The position numbers and the translations under genes were made by a program. The notes under the pieces are model-generated. The model saw only the letters and a program-made list of their open reading frames with translations. It had not been told where the DNA came from and did no database searches. From positions 806,001 through 870,000 of the forward strand of contig NZ_CP071794.1 in assembly GCF_017498565.1 (NCBI RefSeq): DNA of 64,000 nucleotides, in the 5' to 3' direction. The stretch comes from Parasphingorhabdus cellanae (lineage in GTDB: Bacteria; Pseudomonadota; Alphaproteobacteria; Sphingomonadales; Sphingomonadaceae). How positions within the stretch are numbered: position 1 is the first letter of the stretch; every line of letters starts with the position of its first letter. Shown here piece by piece: positions 45,551 to 54,294 of the stretch.

Positions 45551-47029
45551 CTACTCTGCTGACACTACCATATCGGCTTTTTTGCCTCGATCTTTGAAGC
45601 TTGAAACGCGCAGCAGAATTGCGCCGACAGCAAGCACCAAAAAACTCGCTGTGATTGGCAGCCCTGCGGCAGTCAAAACCATTTTCTGATAGCGCGCTGC
45701 ATAGACTGCCACCACCAAGAACAAAAAAGCTCCGTTTGCGGCGAACAACATCTTGGTGATGGCGGCCTTCCCGACACGCTTGCCCTGTACGACCGCCAGG
45801 GCCAGGGATAACCAAAATGCTGCCACCAGCCCCATCGCCGGAACGATATCCAGTAACGCCAAAACCAATGTAAGCGCTAGCGCAGCCGGGGTACCCCAGA
45901 CGACAGCCGTCCATGCCCCTTCAAGTCGGGGTGCTGGATTACCTTTTTCTTCCCTTTTGGTGAAATAGATTTTCAACCCAGAAGCGATGATCACGCAGAG
46001 ACCTAGACCAAACAGCAGATAAGCAAATTTGACCGGCAAACCGCCCCAGTTGCCAAAATGAATATTATACACCGATCCTGTAATCTGTTGACCGATTGTA
46101 CCGTCGGATATGCCAACATTGCCCAGATAATGGCCGTCCGCAGTATAGCTATAATATTCGCCAAAAATCAGACGATCAGGATGCTCCGCTATTATCTGGC
46201 TGTTCTGGCCCGCGGTTCCGGGATCATGTAAAATGAAATAGGTAACATCCAGATTCGGGAAAGTCGCCGCCATGTGCTTTAGCGGCTTGGCGATTGACGC
46301 AACTGCCGCTGGCGCGGCGTTGGCAGCCGGTTCAGAGCCGAAGACCGGGCTGAAAACCGCTTCTGTATCATTGTTGAACCCCGCAGCGGCAATCGCAAAG
46401 GCCAATATGCTTGCGAGCCCCAGGATCGCGCCGGTCAGCGCGTTGGACAGGTGAAAAGGCATTGTCCACACACTCAGACGGTTGTGGAGGTCAACTGTGC
46501 TCAGCCGCCCCGCCTTTCTCCGGAAAGTGAAGGCGTCTCGAAATATTCTGGGATGAGCAAGAAGGCCAGAGAGCGACAAGCCGATCAGCATAACACCCAG
46601 CGCACCGACGATGGTCAGGCCAAGGATTTGCGGCATATGCAGATAATAGTGCAGATCGAGGAGAAACTGTGTCCATGGAAAAGATTCCTCCCCGACAATA
46701 TCGCCCCTCGCATCCGCAAAAAACGCCTGCGTGTCTGTGGTGACTATCGTTCGGGGTAAATCGGGTTGCGGGAAATTCACATAAAGATGCGTGGTCGGGG
46801 TTTCTTCGCTGTTAAATACGGATAGTGCGGCCCGCTCTACCGCTTTTGGAGAAATAGACACCATTTCCGGTGCATCTGGCTGCTCCCAGCGCTGCAATTC
46901 ATGGTTGAATACGCTGAGCGTACCGGTGACGGCCAATATGTAGATAAGGCCCCCGAAAATGACCGCCAAAAAGCTATGCGCTTCAAGAGAGCGCGCTACG
47001 CGAATTGCGGATTTTTTTGCTGATGCCAT
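45551..47029 (-). CDS. PepSY-associated membrane protein, probable ferrisiderophore reductase
   Basis: The 492-residue protein opens with LEAHSFLAVIFGGLIYILAVTGTLSVF, the PepSY_TM start, and continues with DLHYYLHMPQ, DLHNRLSVWTMPFHLSNALTG and a total of about seven hydrophobic helices; a large periplasmic segment lies at about 220-350. Conserved His residues in the helices fit haem or metal binding. FoxB-like members of this family reduce ferric siderophores in the periplasm. It is 46 bases downstream of the 194-residue protein in the receptor operon. Confidence 0.82.
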   Translation of the reverse strand: MASAKKSAIRVARSLEAHSFLAVIFGGLIYILAVTGTLSVFNHELQRWEQPDAPEMVSISPKAVERAALSVFNSEETPTTHLYVNFPQPDLPRTIVTTDTQAFFADARGDIVGEESFPWTQFLLDLHYYLHMPQILGLTIVGALGVMLIGLSLSGLLAHPRIFRDAFTFRRKAGRLSTVDLHNRLSVWTMPFHLSNALTGAILGLASILAFAIAAAGFNNDTEAVFSPVFGSEPAANAAPAAVASIAKPLKHMAATFPNLDVTYFILHDPGTAGQNSQIIAEHPDRLIFGEYYSYTADGHYLGNVGISDGTIGQQITGSVYNIHFGNWGGLPVKFAYLLFGLGLCVIIASGLKIYFTKREEKGNPAPRLEGAWTAVVWGTPAALALTLVLALLDIVPAMGLVAAFWLSLALAVVQGKRVGKAAITKMLFAANGAFLFLVVAVYAARYQKMVLTAAGLPITASFLVLAVGAILLRVSSFKDRGKKADMVVSAE

Positions 47030-47075: not shown

Positions 47076-47660
47076 TTATCGGCCAATCAGCGTCAAGCCC
47101 ATCAATGGCACGACACCCACACTCATGAGGACCAATGACTTGCGCTTCATATTCTGGTCCGCCCCAGACAACACGGCAAGTCCGGCCCAGACCAGCGGGA
47201 AGGCAAACATGGCCACTGTCAGATTGGCAGTATGTTCCATCCCGATCGACCGGTTGGATACAAATAGCAGAGTCGAAACAGACATGGCGGACAGCCCGGC
47301 GATCGGCCCGACCAATAGACCATCCCACCATTTGACGGCTCTCGCATAGCCCGGCTTTTGCGTCTGATCCGGTTTATTCTGGCTTACCCTAGCAGCACGT
47401 CTTTCACGGATCGGGGCTTGTACAGCGGTTACGGTGACAGCGAGGACCGCGATTACAACAACCACAATGATTCCCAGCGCAGAGCCCTTATCTGCCCCGC
47501 TGGTCTGCGACCAGGCAATGATTGATCCCAATATGCACAACCAGCCGAAGACGAGCCGGGCTGGCGTTTTGTGCCTTTGTTGCCAAGAAGATCGCAGCAG
47601 AAATATGCCAGCTGTTGCAGCCGCCAGTCCCGTGAATTGCCAGATAGTGGTGTCATTCAT
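47076..47660 (-). CDS. Six-helix membrane protein of the receptor operon, unknown function
   Basis: The 194-residue product has about five to six hydrophobic segments (near 7-22, 35-52, 60-80, 117-135, 147-165, 172-190) and a basic loop IRERRAARVSQNKPD. I do not recognise the family. It lies one base after the receptor stop and 46 bases before the PepSY gene, so it is part of the receptor operon; a role in siderophore handling is inferred from context only. Confidence 0.6.
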   Translation of the reverse strand: MNDTTIWQFTGLAAATAGIFLLRSSWQQRHKTPARLVFGWLCILGSIIAWSQTSGADKGSALGIIVVVVIAVLAVTVTAVQAPIRERRAARVSQNKPDQTQKPGYARAVKWWDGLLVGPIAGLSAMSVSTLLFVSNRSIGMEHTANLTVAMFAFPLVWAGLAVLSGADQNMKRKSLVLMSVGVVPLMGLTLIGR

Positions 47661-47661
47661 T

Positions 47662-49806
47662 TCAGAAACGATATGCTACGCGGACCACAGCGGTTCGCTC
47701 TTCACCAACAAAACAATCGCCGCGTGCCAGGCAGGTCGCGAAATATTTCTCGTTTGTGATATTCCGGACGTTAAAAGTGACATCCCAGTTTTCTGTTTCG
47801 TAACCCAGCAAAAAATCGCCTAGGATATTGCCGTCTGTCACAACGCGTATCGGACCAACAGCTCCAGTACCGTTGCTTTCATTTTCGCCGACATAGCGCA
47901 AACCGAAACCCAACTTAAAACCGTCCCATGAGCCGAAACTGGGCTGATATTGGACCCATGCCGATGCCTGTTCTTCCGGAATAGAAGCAAACGGAACGCC
48001 GTCTGCCGTTTCTGTATCCAATAGGCTCCCGTTTAATTCCAGATACCAGTCGCCCAGCGTCGTTTGTGCCTGCAGTTCAAAACCTTTCACCTTTCCAACG
48101 CCTTCCTGCTGACTGTTCGGCTGGTTGATTAGAGAGGACGGGTTAGGCAGATTGGATTCCTCAATATCGAAATAGGCAAAAGTTATGTAAGTCCGCGTTC
48201 CGGGCGGCTGGTATTTGATACCCACTTCCCATTGTTTCCCTTCCCTCGGTTTAAGCGGATTATTTGTCAGGCCATCGGTTCCGATCACCGGTTCAAATGA
48301 CTCAGCAAAGCTCACATAGGGCGAAATTCCACCGTCGAAAGCGTAAAGCGCGCCTACGCTAAATGATACCGCATCGTCCTTTTGGACATTGCCATCACTC
48401 TCTGTCCTGCTGTCATCATAGCGAAAACCAAAGTTCAGCTTGAGATCACCAATCGACATCTGGTTGTTGAGATAAAGGCCGTAATCATCCGTTACGGTGT
48501 CCCCTAAATCGGAAAAATTAGCGTCATCGAACAGAGCCGGCGGTATATTGCCATATACCGGGTTATAGATGTTAATCGCACCGACCCTGCGATTGGCGGG
48601 GTCGCTTAAGAAAATGAATTCATTACCGATTTTGACATTTTGATAGGCAAAACCGCCGAACAATTCATGTTCAATTGGTCCGGTATTGAACGCCCAACGC
48701 GCTCGCAGATCAAACGCGGCCTGTTTCGAAAACGCATTGCTGCGAAAGAAAGTGCGGCCCCCATCACCATTGGCATCGACGCGGGGAGGGCCAATGGGGC
48801 CGAGAAAATCGATATAGGATTGCCGGTAATCAACATCTGCGTCCTTGTACCGAAAAATGCCGTCGACCGAAAAATTTTCGGTGAAGTTATGGCTGGCGAG
48901 AAGACTGACTAAAATGGAGTTGGTATCGTAACGGTTGAAGTCCGGATCCCCCAGATATGTGTCCAGTTCAACCTCCTCGCCCGACGAGTTTACACAGACA
49001 GCAGCCGGCGTAATCGTCACATCTCCACTCACGCATCCGGTACCGGTTAATGGTAGGAACTGCTGCGCCGTGTCACTGTCCCGATCAACATATTCGAGCA
49101 TCGCTGTCAGGCGGGTGCGGCCATCATCATAAGTTATCGATGGCATAGCGATGATGGCGTCATCATCGACGAAACCAATCTGCGTATTGGAATCCCGGTA
49201 CAGGCCGACAAATCGAACGAAAAGGCTGTCGGAAATTTCTGCATTCAAGTCCGCAGCCGCCTGATATCGGTCAAATGTCCCGACATCGACGACAAGTTCA
49301 CTCTGTTTATCAGGACCCGCCAGTTTCGAGACGGCATTTACAATACCCCCTGGAGTGCCCTTTCCATATAAAACGGATGCGGGGCCTTTTAGAACTTCGA
49401 CTTGCTCCAGCACATAGACGTCTGACCGCGTATTGTTGTAAAAGCCAAAAAGTACCTGTTGCCCATCACGATATTCTGCAGCGTCAAAGCCGCGAACTTG
49501 AGGGAAGTCGCCGCGCGTCGCAAAACCGAATGTGTCGCCGACAACGCCCGGAATATAGTTCAGAACATCATCGAGCGTCAGCGCGCCTTTGTCACGAAAA
49601 TGGTCCTCTGTCTCAATCGTTACAGATCGCGCCGTTTCAACTATAGGGGTTGCCGACTTTAACGCACCAAAATCAGAAAGTTGGCCGGTTACGATAATGA
49701 CATCCTCTTCATTATCGGTTTCCGTCTGACTTTTCTGCTGATCCTGAGCATATAACGCGTTGGAAAATGTCAGAGCCGTTGCCGCCAACAGAAACTTTCT
49801 AATCAT
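47662..49806 (-). CDS. TonB-dependent siderophore receptor
   Basis: The 714-residue product has a signal peptide ending ALYAQ, TonB box DVIIVTGQ near 35-42, and a plug with RSVTIETEDHF, LNYIPGVVGDTFGFATRGDFPQVRGFD and VEVLKGPASVLYGKGTPGGIVNAVSK (in parts). The barrel follows and ends with the aromatic-rich AVVRVAYRF. The plug class is that of ferric-hydroxamate and related siderophore receptors. A Fur-like box lies 60 bases upstream. It is the first gene of an operon with the 194-residue protein and the PepSY gene. Confidence 0.92.
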   Translation of the reverse strand: MIRKFLLAATALTFSNALYAQDQQKSQTETDNEEDVIIVTGQLSDFGALKSATPIVETARSVTIETEDHFRDKGALTLDDVLNYIPGVVGDTFGFATRGDFPQVRGFDAAEYRDGQQVLFGFYNNTRSDVYVLEQVEVLKGPASVLYGKGTPGGIVNAVSKLAGPDKQSELVVDVGTFDRYQAAADLNAEISDSLFVRFVGLYRDSNTQIGFVDDDAIIAMPSITYDDGRTRLTAMLEYVDRDSDTAQQFLPLTGTGCVSGDVTITPAAVCVNSSGEEVELDTYLGDPDFNRYDTNSILVSLLASHNFTENFSVDGIFRYKDADVDYRQSYIDFLGPIGPPRVDANGDGGRTFFRSNAFSKQAAFDLRARWAFNTGPIEHELFGGFAYQNVKIGNEFIFLSDPANRRVGAINIYNPVYGNIPPALFDDANFSDLGDTVTDDYGLYLNNQMSIGDLKLNFGFRYDDSRTESDGNVQKDDAVSFSVGALYAFDGGISPYVSFAESFEPVIGTDGLTNNPLKPREGKQWEVGIKYQPPGTRTYITFAYFDIEESNLPNPSSLINQPNSQQEGVGKVKGFELQAQTTLGDWYLELNGSLLDTETADGVPFASIPEEQASAWVQYQPSFGSWDGFKLGFGLRYVGENESNGTGAVGPIRVVTDGNILGDFLLGYETENWDVTFNVRNITNEKYFATCLARGDCFVGEERTAVVRVAYRF

Positions 49807-49865: not shown

Positions 49866-49884
49866 GTAAATAAGAATCATTATC
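49866..49884 (-). promoter_or_regulatory. Fur-like box upstream of the siderophore receptor
   Basis: The 19-base stretch GTAAATAAGAATCATTATC matches the classical Fur consensus (inverted GATAAT arms) at 15 of 19 positions. It lies 60 bases upstream of the receptor start. Iron-dependent repression is inferred. Confidence 0.7.
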
Positions 49885-49978
49885 ATTTAAAATTGAACGT
49901 GGTTCTACCGTAAAAATTCAGCAAAAATAGGCTCATTTTCAGAGATTAAGCAAAATTTCGAACAATCTAATTGACAGC

Positions 49979-50024
49979 TTGACACTAACGGACATAGTCT
50001 TATTTGCGAATCGTTCTCATTATC
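49979..50024 (+). promoter_or_regulatory. Promoter with Fur-like box for the divergent operon
   Basis: TTGACA (49979-49984), a 16-base spacer and TATTTG (50001-50006) make a candidate promoter facing the plus-strand operon. It abuts GCGAATCGTTCTCATTATC (50006-50024), matching 13 of 19 positions of the Fur consensus. A second TTGACA lies at 49971. The start of transcription is not known. Confidence 0.55.
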
Positions 50025-50057
50025 AATAATTGACATAACACCTATTGAGGGAGTGCC

Positions 50058-50483
50058 ATGAAGCAGGATGCGTCGGAGTTTGCCAGGTTGCTCAGCAGCA
50101 CACCCGCCTTAGCGAACATTCCGAAAGCGCAAGTCCGTATTGTCAGCGCAATGCGACACACGATTTTGACCCATCGGCAGCAAAAAGACGTCAAGGGTTG
50201 CCTGATCGCGCACTTCGGTACACGAAAGGCCGCCTACAGATTTGCCCGGATACTTGAGGCGATGGGTGACGTTTGGCCAGAACCGATAATGGTTCATGCA
50301 CCGGAATGCGGCACAACGACCTATGACGAGATGCTGCTTCTCGACCTTGTAACAGCCGTTATCCGAAATGACCCCGCCCATTTTAACGGCCTTCTCTGCG
50401 ATATGATCGCCGAAGAAGATTGCGAACGGCTTCACATCACCATTTCGCGATTCATCAAATTATTTCGTCAACAGATCACATGA
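50058..50483 (+). CDS. Small unknown protein of the Fur-linked operon (family A, first copy)
   Basis: The 141-residue soluble protein is not recognised. GAGGGAG lies eight bases before the ATG. It resembles the protein encoded at 51828 along most of its length; both share KAA near residue 57, WPEP near 73, a Cys about ten residues later, a DE-L pattern near 90, and LCxM near 112. No signal peptide or membrane segment is seen, so it should be cytosolic. A terminator-like hairpin follows the stop within six bases. Its place behind a Fur box points to iron-regulated expression. Confidence 0.65.
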   Translation: MKQDASEFARLLSSTPALANIPKAQVRIVSAMRHTILTHRQQKDVKGCLIAHFGTRKAAYRFARILEAMGDVWPEPIMVHAPECGTTTYDEMLLLDLVTAVIRNDPAHFNGLLCDMIAEEDCERLHITISRFIKLFRQQIT

Positions 50484-50487
50484 CATG

Positions 50488-50508
50488 AAGGCCGTAACGG
50501 CCTTTTTT
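50488..50508 (+). terminator. Intrinsic terminator or attenuator inside the Fur-linked operon
   Basis: Seven-base arms AAGGCCG and CGGCCTT with a three-base loop are followed by TTTT (six T in all with the stem end). It lies five bases after the family A stop and 20 bases before the next start, so only part of the transcripts may continue downstream. Confidence 0.75.
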
Positions 50509-50526
50509 AGAGAGGAACAAACACTT

Positions 50527-50988
50527 ATGTATGAATATGTTGATCGCCCAATCCAGCAGCTTGATTATCCCAGCCGGTTTTTCGTCTGGAGCATGCGGCA
50601 ATGGGTGTTTGCCAACATGAACAAGAGATGCCCCTGCTCCACTCTCGGTCCCGCTTTCACCAAATGGAAAATGCTTGAGGCACTCCCCGACTTTTCAATG
50701 GCGATGGCCTATCTGAATGAGTCCGCACAGCAGCAACTGGTTTTCGGACAGCCGTGCTGCGCGGTGGTGCATGAAATTGAAGCGATCCTGCTGGCGGTCC
50801 ACCGGGAAACACTCTCTGGCAACGGCACTGCTGCCAGAGGCATATCGGAGCAGCTTATTGCGAGCGAAGCGGTGATGGGTTTTATGATCGCCTTGCAGCG
50901 CTATTGTGATCACGCAGCAGTTTCACCGCTTAGCCTCGCGCATCTTCCGATAACGACGGAACCTCATCGTGTGAGCAAAAATCGATGA
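50527..50988 (+). CDS. Cysteine-bearing unknown protein of the Fur-linked operon
   Basis: From MYEYVDRPIQ the product has 153 residues; GAGAGGAAC lies upstream, whereas the frame's earlier ATG at 50485 lies inside the terminator hairpin. No family is recognised. Four Cys are grouped in NKRCPCSTLG near 37-46 and GQPCCAVVHE near 79-88, a pattern that could bind a metal or Fe-S cluster. It is soluble. Its stop overlaps the ferredoxin reductase start by four bases, so the two are translationally coupled, which hints at an electron-transfer role. Confidence 0.6.
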   Translation: MYEYVDRPIQQLDYPSRFFVWSMRQWVFANMNKRCPCSTLGPAFTKWKMLEALPDFSMAMAYLNESAQQQLVFGQPCCAVVHEIEAILLAVHRETLSGNGTAARGISEQLIASEAVMGFMIALQRYCDHAAVSPLSLAHLPITTEPHRVSKNR

Positions 50989-51800
50989 ACATGGAAGTCC
51001 GTCCCCCGCTGCGAATTCCGGATGCCAAGGCTTTCAGCACCGTCGAAGTTGTGCGCGTCAAGCATTGGCATGAGCATCTGTTCAGTTTCAGTGTCACTCG
51101 TCCGAACAGTTTCCGTTTTCGGTCAGGAGAATTTGTCATGCTCGGCATGGCGGTTGATGATAAGCCGTTGATGCGCGCCTATTCCATTGCCAGTCCTGCC
51201 TATGCCGACGAGCTCGACTTCCTCTCGGTAAAGGTCCCCGATGGTCCGCTGACTTCCCAATTACAGCGGATAAGGAACGGCGACCAACTGTATCTCGGAC
51301 GCAAGCCTACAGGTACACTGGTCGCCGATGCCCTTTTACCCGGACGCCGGTTGTTCTTGCTGGCCACCGGTACTGGTCTTGCTCCGTTTCTCAGCATAGC
51401 CAGAGATCCGGATATATATGAGGCCTACAGCCAGGTCATTCTGGTGCATAGCGTGCGCCATGTGAGCGAGCTCGCTTTTCGCAACGAACTTGAAGCGCAA
51501 CTGGCCGGAGATCCGCTGGTGCAAGATCAGGCCCTGTTACAGTTCCATTATATCCCCACGGTCACGCGGGAAAGCTTTCGGACCACCGGACGGATCCAGC
51601 AGCTCATTCAGACAGAAGAATTGTTCGGCCACCCGGTTATCGGACCAAAATGCTTCGACCCCGGTCAGGACCGGATCATGCTGTGTGGCAGCATGGAGAT
51701 GATCAAGGAGTTTTCCGAATATTTCGAGGCTCTGGAGTTTCAGGAAGGGTCCAACGCAGCTCCAGGGCAATTTGTCATCGAACGGGCCTTTGTTGGCTGA
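50985..51800 (+). CDS. fpr: Ferredoxin/flavodoxin--NADP+ reductase
   Basis: The 271-residue flavoprotein has the FAD motif RAYSIASP near 64-71 and the NADP motifs LLATGTGLAPFLSI near 126-139 and IMLCGSMEMIKE near 228-239, ending in VIERAFVG, close to the Fpr C-terminus (usually an aromatic-containing tail). It moves electrons between NADPH and ferredoxin or flavin acceptors. In a Fur-linked operon a role in iron release or cluster repair is plausible. The start overlaps the upstream gene by four bases. Confidence 0.92.
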   Translation: MNMEVRPPLRIPDAKAFSTVEVVRVKHWHEHLFSFSVTRPNSFRFRSGEFVMLGMAVDDKPLMRAYSIASPAYADELDFLSVKVPDGPLTSQLQRIRNGDQLYLGRKPTGTLVADALLPGRRLFLLATGTGLAPFLSIARDPDIYEAYSQVILVHSVRHVSELAFRNELEAQLAGDPLVQDQALLQFHYIPTVTRESFRTTGRIQQLIQTEELFGHPVIGPKCFDPGQDRIMLCGSMEMIKEFSEYFEALEFQEGSNAAPGQFVIERAFVG

Positions 51801-51827
51801 AATCTGGGCTTAAATCGGAGCAGTTGC

Positions 51828-52250
51828 ATGAGCTACATGACCAAGTTTTTTGCCGACCATCAACGCACGGCAGATTATCATCCAGCCGACCAGCGTATCA
51901 TACTGGCCGTGCGCACAGCGGTGTTCCAGACACATTGCAAACAGGATCCTGTGGAATCGATGACCAGTATTCTGGGTTCAGATAAGGCAGCTGGCGCGCT
52001 TGTGCATGTGCTTCGTGTCATTGGTGAAAACTGGCCGGAACCGTTCTCAGTCCAACCACCTTTCTGCCATATGGTCAGCATGGACGAGCGGCTGATTGTG
52101 AACCTGATCACCGCAGCGGTTCATGACAATCGCCCCGGCTATGATCATATACTCTGCGAGATGCTGGACGAAGATGTGCGGGATCATGTCTACAACGCCA
52201 TTCAGGCATTCATTCGCCCCTATCTGGCTGCGCGGATAACCATGCACTGA
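51828..52250 (+). CDS. Small unknown protein of the Fur-linked operon (family A, second copy)
   Basis: The 140-residue protein resembles the one encoded at 50058 (shared DQRI near residue 21, KAA near 53, NWPEP near 68-72, a Cys near 80, DERL near 87, LCEML near 109). No family, signal peptide or membrane segment is seen. CGGAGCAG lies about eight bases upstream. The stop overlaps the start of the next gene by one base (TGATG). Two divergent copies in one operon suggest a heteromer or two stages of one process. Confidence 0.65.
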   Translation: MSYMTKFFADHQRTADYHPADQRIILAVRTAVFQTHCKQDPVESMTSILGSDKAAGALVHVLRVIGENWPEPFSVQPPFCHMVSMDERLIVNLITAAVHDNRPGYDHILCEMLDEDVRDHVYNAIQAFIRPYLAARITMH

Positions 52251-52930
52251 TGAGCAAGCCCGAGCCAGACCCGATATTCGGCAAGATCATCCGCCTGGTA
52301 ATCACCATTATGGGACTGGGACTGCTCGTGATGGCCGTATTGAATTGGCAGACTTATGGCTGGGGCGCATTGGTCTGGATTGGAGCAATGATCGGACAGA
52401 CCATCATTCGTGTTCCGCATGCTCGGCGCAATGCGCAAAACACTATCGTCCAGGACAAGAAGGACGTGCAGGAACAGGTTTTGCTTACCGCCATGTTCCT
52501 GACCATGGCTCTGTTCCCTCTCTTGCACATCGCCACCGGTCTCTTTGCATTCGCAGATTATGCCCTGCCGACTTGGGCAACCACTATCGGCTTTGTCATG
52601 CAGGTCCTTTTCCTCTGGCTATTTTGGCGTAGTCATTCAGATCTCGGACAAAACTGGAGCGCGACCCTGGAGGTTCGCGATGAGCATAACCTTGTGACCG
52701 AAGGTGTGTACGCCCGCATAAGGCATCCCATGTACACAGCAATCTGGCTGGCCGCCCTTTCACAGCCGCTGCTAATCCACAACTGGATAGCAGGCGCGCT
52801 GGTCATCCTTGCATTCGCAGTCATGTGCGTTCTGCGTATCCCACGGGAAGAGACCATGATGCGGGACATTTTTGGTGCGGAATATGAAAATTACATACTC
52901 CAAACTGGCAGGTTGATCCCGAAATTGTGA
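52250..52930 (+). CDS. ICMT-like membrane methyltransferase
   Basis: The 226-residue protein has about five hydrophobic helices and the isoprenylcysteine-carboxyl-methyltransferase-type C-terminus: GVYARIRHPMYTAIWLAAL near 156-174 and REETMMRDIFGAEYENYILQTGRLIP near 199-224 (in parts). The RHPxY and EE motifs bind S-adenosylmethionine. Bacterial members methylate unknown small molecules or lipids. It is coupled to the upstream gene. A role in siderophore or lipid modification is inference. Confidence 0.82.
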   Translation: MSKPEPDPIFGKIIRLVITIMGLGLLVMAVLNWQTYGWGALVWIGAMIGQTIIRVPHARRNAQNTIVQDKKDVQEQVLLTAMFLTMALFPLLHIATGLFAFADYALPTWATTIGFVMQVLFLWLFWRSHSDLGQNWSATLEVRDEHNLVTEGVYARIRHPMYTAIWLAALSQPLLIHNWIAGALVILAFAVMCVLRIPREETMMRDIFGAEYENYILQTGRLIPKL

Positions 52931-52971: not shown

Positions 52972-52995
52972 TATTTGATATTCATTTGCAATAAC
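52972..52995 (+). promoter_or_regulatory. Weak Fur-like sequence before the truncated receptor
   Basis: The AT-rich stretch ATTTGATATTCATTTGCAAT resembles Fur sites upstream of many receptors but matches the consensus poorly. It lies about 50 bases before the receptor start. Confidence 0.3.
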
Positions 52996-53042: not shown

Positions 53043-53609
53043 ATGACATCAGGCTTTAATCATATGCGCATCGCATTCCTCCTGTCGGCTTGCGCAAGCT
53101 CGGCATTGACTGTTCCAAGCATGGCCCAAACCAATAGACCTGCAGAAAACGCACAATCCTCAGATGCGGCGGTTGCCGAAGACAGCACCATAGTCGTGAC
53201 CGCTTTTAAGCGCGACTATCTCGCTAACGAGGACCAGAGCATCGCGCTTGGCATCGATTTGAGTCAGCTCGAAACGCCGGCCGCCGTCAGCGTGATTTCG
53301 GAAGATATTCTGAAAGATCAGCAGGTGAACAATGTCGACGATGCACTGCGTAATGTGGCCGGTGTGACCAAGTTCAAGACAGGCAATGGCGGCGAGGAAA
53401 AATTCTCCATCCGTGGTTTCGACGCCTCCCAGTCGATCTACAAAGACGGGGCGCGCATCAACAATGCGCTTAACGCTTCCAACATCCCGTCAACCGAAAC
53501 CGCTAATCTCCAGCGGATCGAAATATTGAAAGGCCCATCGGCGTTGCTCTACGGCCAAGGCCAGCCCGGCGGCATCATCAACTATGTGACGAAACGGCCC
53601 GAGCTATAA
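53043..53609 (+). pseudogene. TonB-dependent receptor truncated after the plug
   Basis: The 188-residue product has a signal peptide (ending SMAQ), TonB box STIVVTAF near 48-55, and a nearly complete plug (LRNVAGVTKFKTGNGGEEKFSIRGFD in parts, IEILKGPSALLYGQGQPGGIINYVTKRPEL in parts). It then stops at TAA 53607-53609 with no barrel. Immediately after, in another frame, a PepSY protein C-terminal half begins. The receptor cannot be a functional transporter. The plug differs from the receptor encoded at 47662. Confidence 0.88.
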
Positions 53610-54294
53610 GAAATTCTGGCGCGGGTTCTTCAGGCGGCCGCGATGGCATCGCGACGGACGCACCTTGATGGGCGATCTTCATCGGCTCGCCGGCCTCTGG
53701 TCGCTCTGGTTCGTTGTGACGATCGGACTGACCTCCGTCTGGTATTTCGTCGAACGGGCAGGTGTCGGGCTTGAAACCCCGCCTCCCGCAGCAACAGTCA
53801 CCGAGGCTCCGCTTGATATCAACGGCGCAACAATCAGAGGCTGGGTGGAACGCACTGAAGCGGAAATGCCTGGCCTTGCGGTCAACGCAGTTTTTCTGCC
53901 GTACTCGCCAGGCGATCCAACCGTGGTGCAAGGCCAGTGGCGTGCCATCCTGGTTCGAGAACGCGCCAATGCCGCTTTCTTCGATCCGGTAACCGGCGCG
54001 CTTCTTCGCATACGCGCAGCGCATGAGATGGGAGTGGGGGAGCGCATTGTTCACACCGCCGATCCGCTGCATTTCGGAACATTCGGCGGCCTCACGATCA
54101 AGCTCATCTGGGTGCTATTTGGCCTTTTCCTGATCGGCATGGCGGCGAGCGGAGCCTATATCTATGCCAAACGAACACGCGAAGCGTTCTCCACCTATGG
54201 ACCTTTCAAACCGCTCGATTATCTTGGCACCTGGAAATGGCCCAGCATCGCAGTCGTGACAGTTGTTCCGCTTTACTTCTTCATTCTCTGGTAG
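53605..54294 (+). pseudogene. PepSY-associated membrane protein, N-terminal part missing
   Basis: From 53605 the frame reads YKKFWRGFFRRPRWHRDGRTLM, a PepSY_TM linker, then GDLHRLAGLWSLWFVVTIGL and two further hydrophobic helices near the C-terminus. About the first half (N-terminal helices and PepSY repeat) is absent. The first ATG is at 53665, so a 209-residue product could be made. The frame overlaps the receptor stop by four bases. Base composition seems more GC-rich than its neighbours, perhaps from a foreign source. Confidence 0.8.

Follow-up and report, generated by a model that had tools for sequence, protein, structure and literature searches.

Small paralogous proteins coupled to fpr behind a Fur-like box in Parasphingorhabdus cellanae, and their relatives in Alphaproteobacteria

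FhuF and SIP-type proteins are cytosolic ferri-siderophore reductases, and Bfd-type [2Fe-2S] ferredoxins carry a conserved set of four cysteines. These are among the described systems closest to an operon of Parasphingorhabdus cellanae, found in a 64,000 nt stretch of contig NZ_CP071794.1 (positions 806,001 to 870,000; the whole stretch is called the window below), in which three genes for small proteins, here named sp1, cysP and sp2, lie together with fpr, the gene for a ferredoxin-NADP reductase (Fpr), behind a Fur-like box. In the Fpr-Bfd-bacterioferritin system, as given in the accessible part of the source, Fpr supplies electrons for the release of intracellular iron (PMC9368920). The hiuABC operon of Caulobacter crescentus encodes, according to the accessible part of its description, a PepSY protein similar to the FoxB reductase (HiuB) and a small inner-membrane protein (HiuC) (PMC13001220).

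The P. cellanae locus resembles each of these systems in part. An operon divergent from sp1 has, like hiuABC, genes for a TonB siderophore receptor, a PepSY protein and a small protein, together with a Fur-like box, but no fpr or small helical family is mentioned for the Caulobacter operon in the accessible part of that paper (PMC13001220), and the small 194 amino acid (aa) protein of the window is likened to HiuC by kind and position. The likeness to Fpr-Bfd-bacterioferritin lies in the use of Fpr as an electron supplier for intracellular iron release, whereas the small proteins of the window have neither a Bfd match in Pfam nor a conserved cysteine set, and the genome carries a separate Bfd-type protein. 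With FhuF and SIP-type proteins the small proteins would share the proposed site of action, cytosolic iron release within the Fur regulon, but they lack a conserved cysteine quartet. Membership of the small proteins in the Bfd, FhuF or SIP families was rejected, as there was no match to the profiles PF04324, PF06276 or PF08021 at E values up to 1, and a search of the whole genome also found no FhuF (PF06276) or SIP-type/FAD_binding_9 (PF08021) match. A distant relative (locus L165) matches DUF6628 (PF20333) around its C-x-DE region with an E value of 0.016, but its 15.7 bits are below the 27-bit cut-off and the window proteins have no match to it at E values up to 1; a DUF6628 search of the P. 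cellanae genome found none, but the control genomes gave none either. Searches of the open-licence literature found no paper on DUF6607 (a neighbour family described below) or DUF6628, and the papers listed for Fur in Sphingomonas, Novosphingobium, Sphingopyxis or Alphaproteobacteria, or for Roseobacter heme, include none that by its listing concerns these genes. The accessible parts of three Caulobacter iron studies (PMC3751524, PMC6120978, PMC11870441) and of the Gluconacetobacter study (PMC9368920) do not describe the family, and none of these was searched by sequence.

An earlier note on this DNA had proposed an iron-responsive redox or siderophore-processing module. The observation behind it is real but is better framed, as judged from sequence, as a Fur-regulon protein family that has no model in the family databases and has fpr as a recurrent partner. 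The five successive plus-strand genes of the note were confirmed as open reading frames (ORFs): sp1 (50058..50483, 141 aa), cysP (50527..50988, 153 aa), fpr (50985..51800, 271 aa), sp2 (51828..52250, 140 aa) and a gene for a protein-S-isoprenylcysteine O-methyltransferase-type (ICMT-type) protein (52250..52930, 226 aa; NF040696, 241.9 bits, cut-off 160). The predicted Fur-like box ahead of them was also recovered, at 50006..50024 (score 19.6, using a matrix derived from other genomes). The genes had been said to overlap for the most part, which holds for two of the four junctions, cysP/fpr (4 bp, ATGA, 50985-50988) and sp2/ICMT (1 bp), while sp1 and cysP are separated by 43 bp, and fpr and sp2 by 27 bp. 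The cysP ORF opens further upstream, at 50485, but 50527 is most likely the start because the family alignment begins there at the residues MY. The predicted Fpr identity was upheld: the FAD domain (PF00970, 28.6 bits) and the NAD domain (PF00175, 35.8 bits) are both above cut-off, and the product matches solved ferredoxin-NADP reductases with an E value of 1e-80, so that fpr is assigned to the bacterial enzymes with FAD- and NAD-binding domains of the ferredoxin-NADP reductase fold. The ICMT-type gene is outside the conserved module; in a second copy of the operon its place is taken by fur.

The earlier note took sp1 and sp2 for paralogs and cysP for a separate, cysteine-rich protein. The pairing of sp1 and sp2 is correct, as they are 26% identical and have the WPEP, P-x-C and LCxM blocks in common, but cysP turned out to be a third paralog. 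Profile-profile comparison (hhalign) of the cysP and sp families gave a probability of 98.4 and an E value of 9.5e-15 over 138 columns, and the profile of alignment A2 (43 cysP relatives) matches sp1 (1.1e-5) and the sp2 of the second operon copy (8.6e-7). By these comparisons sp1, cysP and sp2 are three members of one superfamily, homologous over their whole length. Residue conservation was followed in A2 and in two further alignments, A6 (24 sp rows) and A7 (11 distant proteins, ten from the class-level search and one from Roseivivax). Six residues are invariant in the 43 rows of A2 (Y2, D6, R24, W26, E85 and A86), three in A6 (R33, D90 and E91), and one R, one W and the D-E pair in A7. The cysteines of A2 vary widely in conservation (C35, 41/43; C37, 13/43; C77, 8/43; C78, 23/43), P36 being present in 34/43, and the P-x-C cysteine is retained in 23/43 cysP proteins, in 15/24 sp proteins (as C84) and in 9/11 distant proteins. 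C35 is near-invariant within the cysP subfamily only, and no cysteine is kept across the superfamily. A cysteine-rich metal or redox protein was rejected as a family property, the cysteine pairs not being conserved among the 43 relatives; the paired motifs of the window cysP are a local feature and therefore do not support a shared metal cluster, which removes the argument that the note had built on them.

Both subfamilies are predicted to be small all-helical domains (AlphaFold2 pLDDT 93.3 for cysP and 94.4 for sp1). The note had called the small proteins unrecognised, and profile and structure searches agree. Foldseek returned no significant solved relative, only weak AhpD, NusB and TetR rows with E values of 0.32 or worse; Pfam scores were insignificant (DUF3110, E 0.094; CENP-L, E 0.049; none for sp2) and included no significant DNA- or RNA-binding family, and a scan of the three proteins against NCBIfam gave no match at E values up to 1. 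Pfam and NCBIfam likewise gave no family for the proteins of the second copy or for a lone member elsewhere in the genome, and four proteins submitted to PADLOC had no match at E values up to 1.

The association with Fur-like boxes extends well beyond the window. A seed matrix was made from the E. coli Fur consensus and variants, and a second from 21 Sphingomonadaceae sites. Among Sphingomonadaceae, the seed matrix placed 24/43 cysP and 18/24 sp upstream stretches above the 95th percentile of 608 controls, and 4/43 and 8/24 above the 99th, counts that are not all independent because an operon has a single such stretch for all its genes. At class level the Sphingomonadaceae-only matrix was applied to 28 genomes from 16 other alphaproteobacterial families, the best 28 of 77 matches outside the family, with 276 upstream controls taken from stretches around 20 of the 28 genes; for tandem members (L152, L158, L159 and L160) the upstream gene alone was scored. 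The 99th percentile of the controls was exceeded at 27/28 loci, and every control at 11, the independent number being nearer the family count because within a family some loci have their site in common. The odd locus, L151, does have a site (1405-1423), which the scan missed and which precedes the true domain start by about 54 bp; the count was kept at 27/28. Plain matching to the E. coli consensus gave the same picture, with at least 13 of 19 bases matched at 17/28 loci against 5/276 controls, and at least 12 of 19 at 22/28 against 31/276. In the reverse test, a matrix built from the class sites only recovered both boxes of the window (49866-49884 and 50006-50024) and found boxes at L006, L007, two Azospirillum genes and a Novosphingobium gene; both operon copies of P. 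cellanae, L006 being the locus of the second, thus have a box. Nine Fur-site calls at six places were made in the window, whereas five block-shuffled versions averaged 2.8 calls. On these motif data, assignment of the family to the iron-linked Fur regulon is well supported, and it is probably an overlooked part of the alphaproteobacterial iron-starvation response.

Coupling to fpr is the second recurrent feature. In 22 of 52 Sphingomonadaceae cysP loci, fpr follows cysP directly on the same strand, in 11 of them with the 4-bp overlap. Approached from the other side, 24 of the best 80 fpr loci from titled genomes, out of 580 relatives found, have a family member directly upstream. Taking the 99th percentile of 1275 random stretches as threshold, a Fur-like box was found at 18/23 fpr loci with an upstream member and at 9/55 fpr genes without one (23 of 24 and 55 of 56 loci could be evaluated, two being too short), although the stretches differ slightly, 300+30 bp before the small gene as against 350 bp before the fpr match. 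The family therefore goes with iron control of fpr. The word iron-responsive in the earlier note thus finds support in motifs, namely the class-level boxes, this contrast between fpr loci, and the Fur gene with which the second operon copy closes.

Relatives of the window cysP were found in 47 and relatives of sp1 in 75 of 298 Sphingomonadaceae genomes, and the A2 profile has matches in at least 130 of them (best 12 candidates per genome scored). In the class (385 genomes, best 9 candidates scored) matches occur in at least 80 genomes, of which 77 belong to families other than Sphingomonadaceae, and in a phylum sample of 299 genomes that includes class genomes, the 25 with a match are all Alphaproteobacteria. 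Named members are AZOLI_RS22260 of Azospirillum lipoferum, HUE56_RS02450 of A. oryzae and FIU97_RS19360 of Roseivivax sp. THAF40, and a further site is on plasmid pSA1 of Novosphingobium resinovorum. Tandem gene pairs of family members recur across loci, and one locus (G628:C9, L291 536-1675) encodes a 379-residue protein with two family domains, a natural tandem fusion (the profile aligns to roughly residues 106-206 and 233-367 of an open frame of 394 residues) that hints at dimers. A separate group of small proteins, marked by a C-S-x-x-L-S-x-D-E block and by CPFD near the C-terminus, was seen at L123 (11864-12412), L124 (8714-9181) and L129 (7851-8459); it directly adjoins a family member at two of these three loci and is possibly a further divergent paralog.

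The P. cellanae genome has seven family members at three loci. The module is present a second time at C1:1914636-1916832, where it encodes proteins 76% (sp1), 78% (cysP) and 89% (Fpr) identical to those of the window, plus sp2. A genome search with this Fpr gave just two matches, one in each operon copy. Following sp2 by 74 bp, in the place of the methyltransferase of the window, is a full-length Fur gene (L006 9908-10330), and beyond it are genes for a TonB receptor, a 194-aa protein and a PepSY protein. The remaining member stands alone at C1:1149090 and likewise has a Fur-like box ahead of it. In total the genome has four Fur-family places and one Bfd-type protein. Fur-family genes were also seen near members at L059, L078 and L079.

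The divergent operon of the window has its own Fur-like box (49866..49884, score 22.4, matrix from other genomes) and comprises, on the minus strand, a TonB-dependent siderophore receptor as hiuA-like neighbour (47662..49806; TIGR01783, 275.6 bits, cut-off 223.5), a 194-aa protein that is hydrophobic by eye, has no Pfam family above cut-off and is hiuC-like by position (47076..47660), and a hiuB-like PepSY_TM protein (45551..47029; PF03929, 188.2 bits, cut-off 28.8). In the neighbour maps, from which 13 of 74 loci without a called family gene were excluded, PepSY genes lie beside members in 6/61 loci and DUF6607 (PF20311) genes in 5/61. The DUF6607-type genes, at L119, L122, L038, L051 and L082, adjoin TonB receptors close to small-family genes; that of L119, the one tested, scores 205 bits with PF20311. 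Among 20 distant loci mapped, a member was called in 18 (15 single genes and three tandem pairs), and these 18 have no common neighbour, with an adjacent receptor in one (L173). In Roseivivax the member belongs to a heme-uptake cluster, with hemP on one side of it and a DUF1289 gene on the other.

Other features of the window locus are of minor weight. A sigma-70-like promoter candidate (TTGACA-16-CATAGT, consensus 10/12) is at 49971..49998 on the plus strand, but promoter-like matches near the operon (6) are not clearly higher in number than in shuffles (mean 3.7, standard deviation 1.8). A hairpin with a 7-bp stem followed by TTTT was spotted by eye between sp1 and cysP (50488-50508); it was considered as a possible attenuator, but the terminator scan lists none and the second operon copy has no counterpart. 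Past the operon, a TonB receptor that ends after its plug domain (53043-53609, with a Fur-like box upstream at 52977-52995) is followed by a PepSY_TM protein reduced to its C-terminal part (53665-54294), and the two look like what a deletion has left of a receptor-PepSY pair.

The reading we favour, at a probability of roughly 0.38, is a Fur-repressed iron-starvation operon in which three soluble-looking, all-helical paralogs act as cytosolic adaptors that bring electrons from Fpr to iron release. When iron is scarce, Fur would leave the box and the small proteins and Fpr would be made together. The small proteins are placed in the cytosol because inspection by eye shows neither a signal peptide nor a membrane helix. 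They would be specificity or adaptor subunits through which electrons of NADPH pass from Fpr to the release of iron from imported ferri-siderophore or heme, or from ferric stores, a step that would come after uptake by the hiuABC-like system of the divergent operon. At loci that lack a neighbouring fpr, an Fpr encoded elsewhere would take this part. The homology of the superfamily, its Fur-like boxes, the coupling to fpr, a genome without FhuF or SIP matches and the Roseivivax heme cluster would all support this. Of the module proposed by the note, the redox part would then stand indirectly, through the linkage to fpr and not through cysteine pairs, and the siderophore-processing part is suggested by the hiuABC-like divergent operon but not by proximity to receptors.

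Several results weigh against electron delivery. A gene for Fpr is not adjacent in 30 of the 52 Sphingomonadaceae cysP loci, nor in the 18 distant loci with a called member. The small proteins have no conserved set of cofactor-binding cysteines and therefore no sign of a redox centre, and the Bfd-type protein of the genome could serve Fpr instead. A receptor lies within 3 kb of 21/61 member loci and of 28/84 control genes of the same loci, and since this proximity equals the control rate it is not counted as evidence. No comparable Fur-like site was found by the class-sites matrix in the Roseivivax stretch. Lastly, fpr of Gluconacetobacter is reported, in the accessible part of the source, to be higher with iron, not without it (PMC9368920).

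Given that no cofactor site is conserved, that many loci lack fpr and that the genome has a Bfd-type protein, and given the Gluconacetobacter report, a regulatory or iron-sparing role is almost as likely as that of an accessory subunit of Fpr. The family would then be a Fur-controlled protein, an analogue of an iron-sparing small RNA or a modulator of Fur or other enzymes, that binds protein or RNA and lowers the use of iron, and the linkage would merely confer iron control on fpr. We regard this as possible but doubtful when taken on its own. It would fit the distant alphaproteobacterial members, which are mostly single genes behind a Fur-like box with no common neighbour, the small helical domain without conserved cofactor residues, the recurrent tandem paralogs and the one fusion, and the fur genes that adjoin a member at L078 and in the second operon copy; it leaves unexplained the specific coupling to fpr, in 11 of the 22 cases by a 4-bp overlap, and no significant match to a DNA- or RNA-binding family was found.

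Cys-Pro motifs can bind heme, and it is conceivable, though unlikely, that the family itself binds iron or heme through C35-P36 of cysP and the P-x-C...D-E block, as a cytosolic carrier or sensor. The conservation of C35 and P36 among cysP relatives, the P-x-C cysteine of most distant proteins, a D-E pair present in every one of the 24 sp rows and of the 11 distant ones and the heme-uptake neighbourhood in Roseivivax are in keeping with this, but C35 is confined to cysP, and the P-x-C cysteine is missing from so many sp and cysP proteins that no ligand set is family-wide. A reading in which the small proteins, with no dedicated iron role, travel as lineage-specific passengers with the TonB-receptor clusters of an ordinary siderophore-uptake neighbourhood is very improbable: receptor-rich genomes would yield such neighbours anyway, and proximity at the local background marks nothing out as a receptor partner, but Fur-like boxes precede members in other families, where just one of 18 mapped loci has a receptor neighbour, and the class-level boxes and the box contrast between fpr loci already disfavour it.

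Set against these alternatives, electron delivery from Fpr remains our preferred reading. A wider form of it, to which we give rather little credence, is that the family is a class-wide, unnamed component of the Fur regulon, induced on iron starvation in many bacterial families, that in Sphingomonadaceae has been joined with fpr as a dedicated cytosolic electron-delivery module, in genomes without FhuF or SIP-type proteins. The family has a Fur-like box before nearly every distant member examined, yet neither Pfam nor NCBIfam models it and the structure search gave no significant solved relative. Should its members be partners of Fpr, they would fill a gap in intracellular iron release where the genome has no match to FhuF or SIP; if they are iron-sparing regulators, they would be a protein counterpart of iron-sparing small RNAs. 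In either role, published iron-limitation datasets from Alphaproteobacteria can be re-read for this family.

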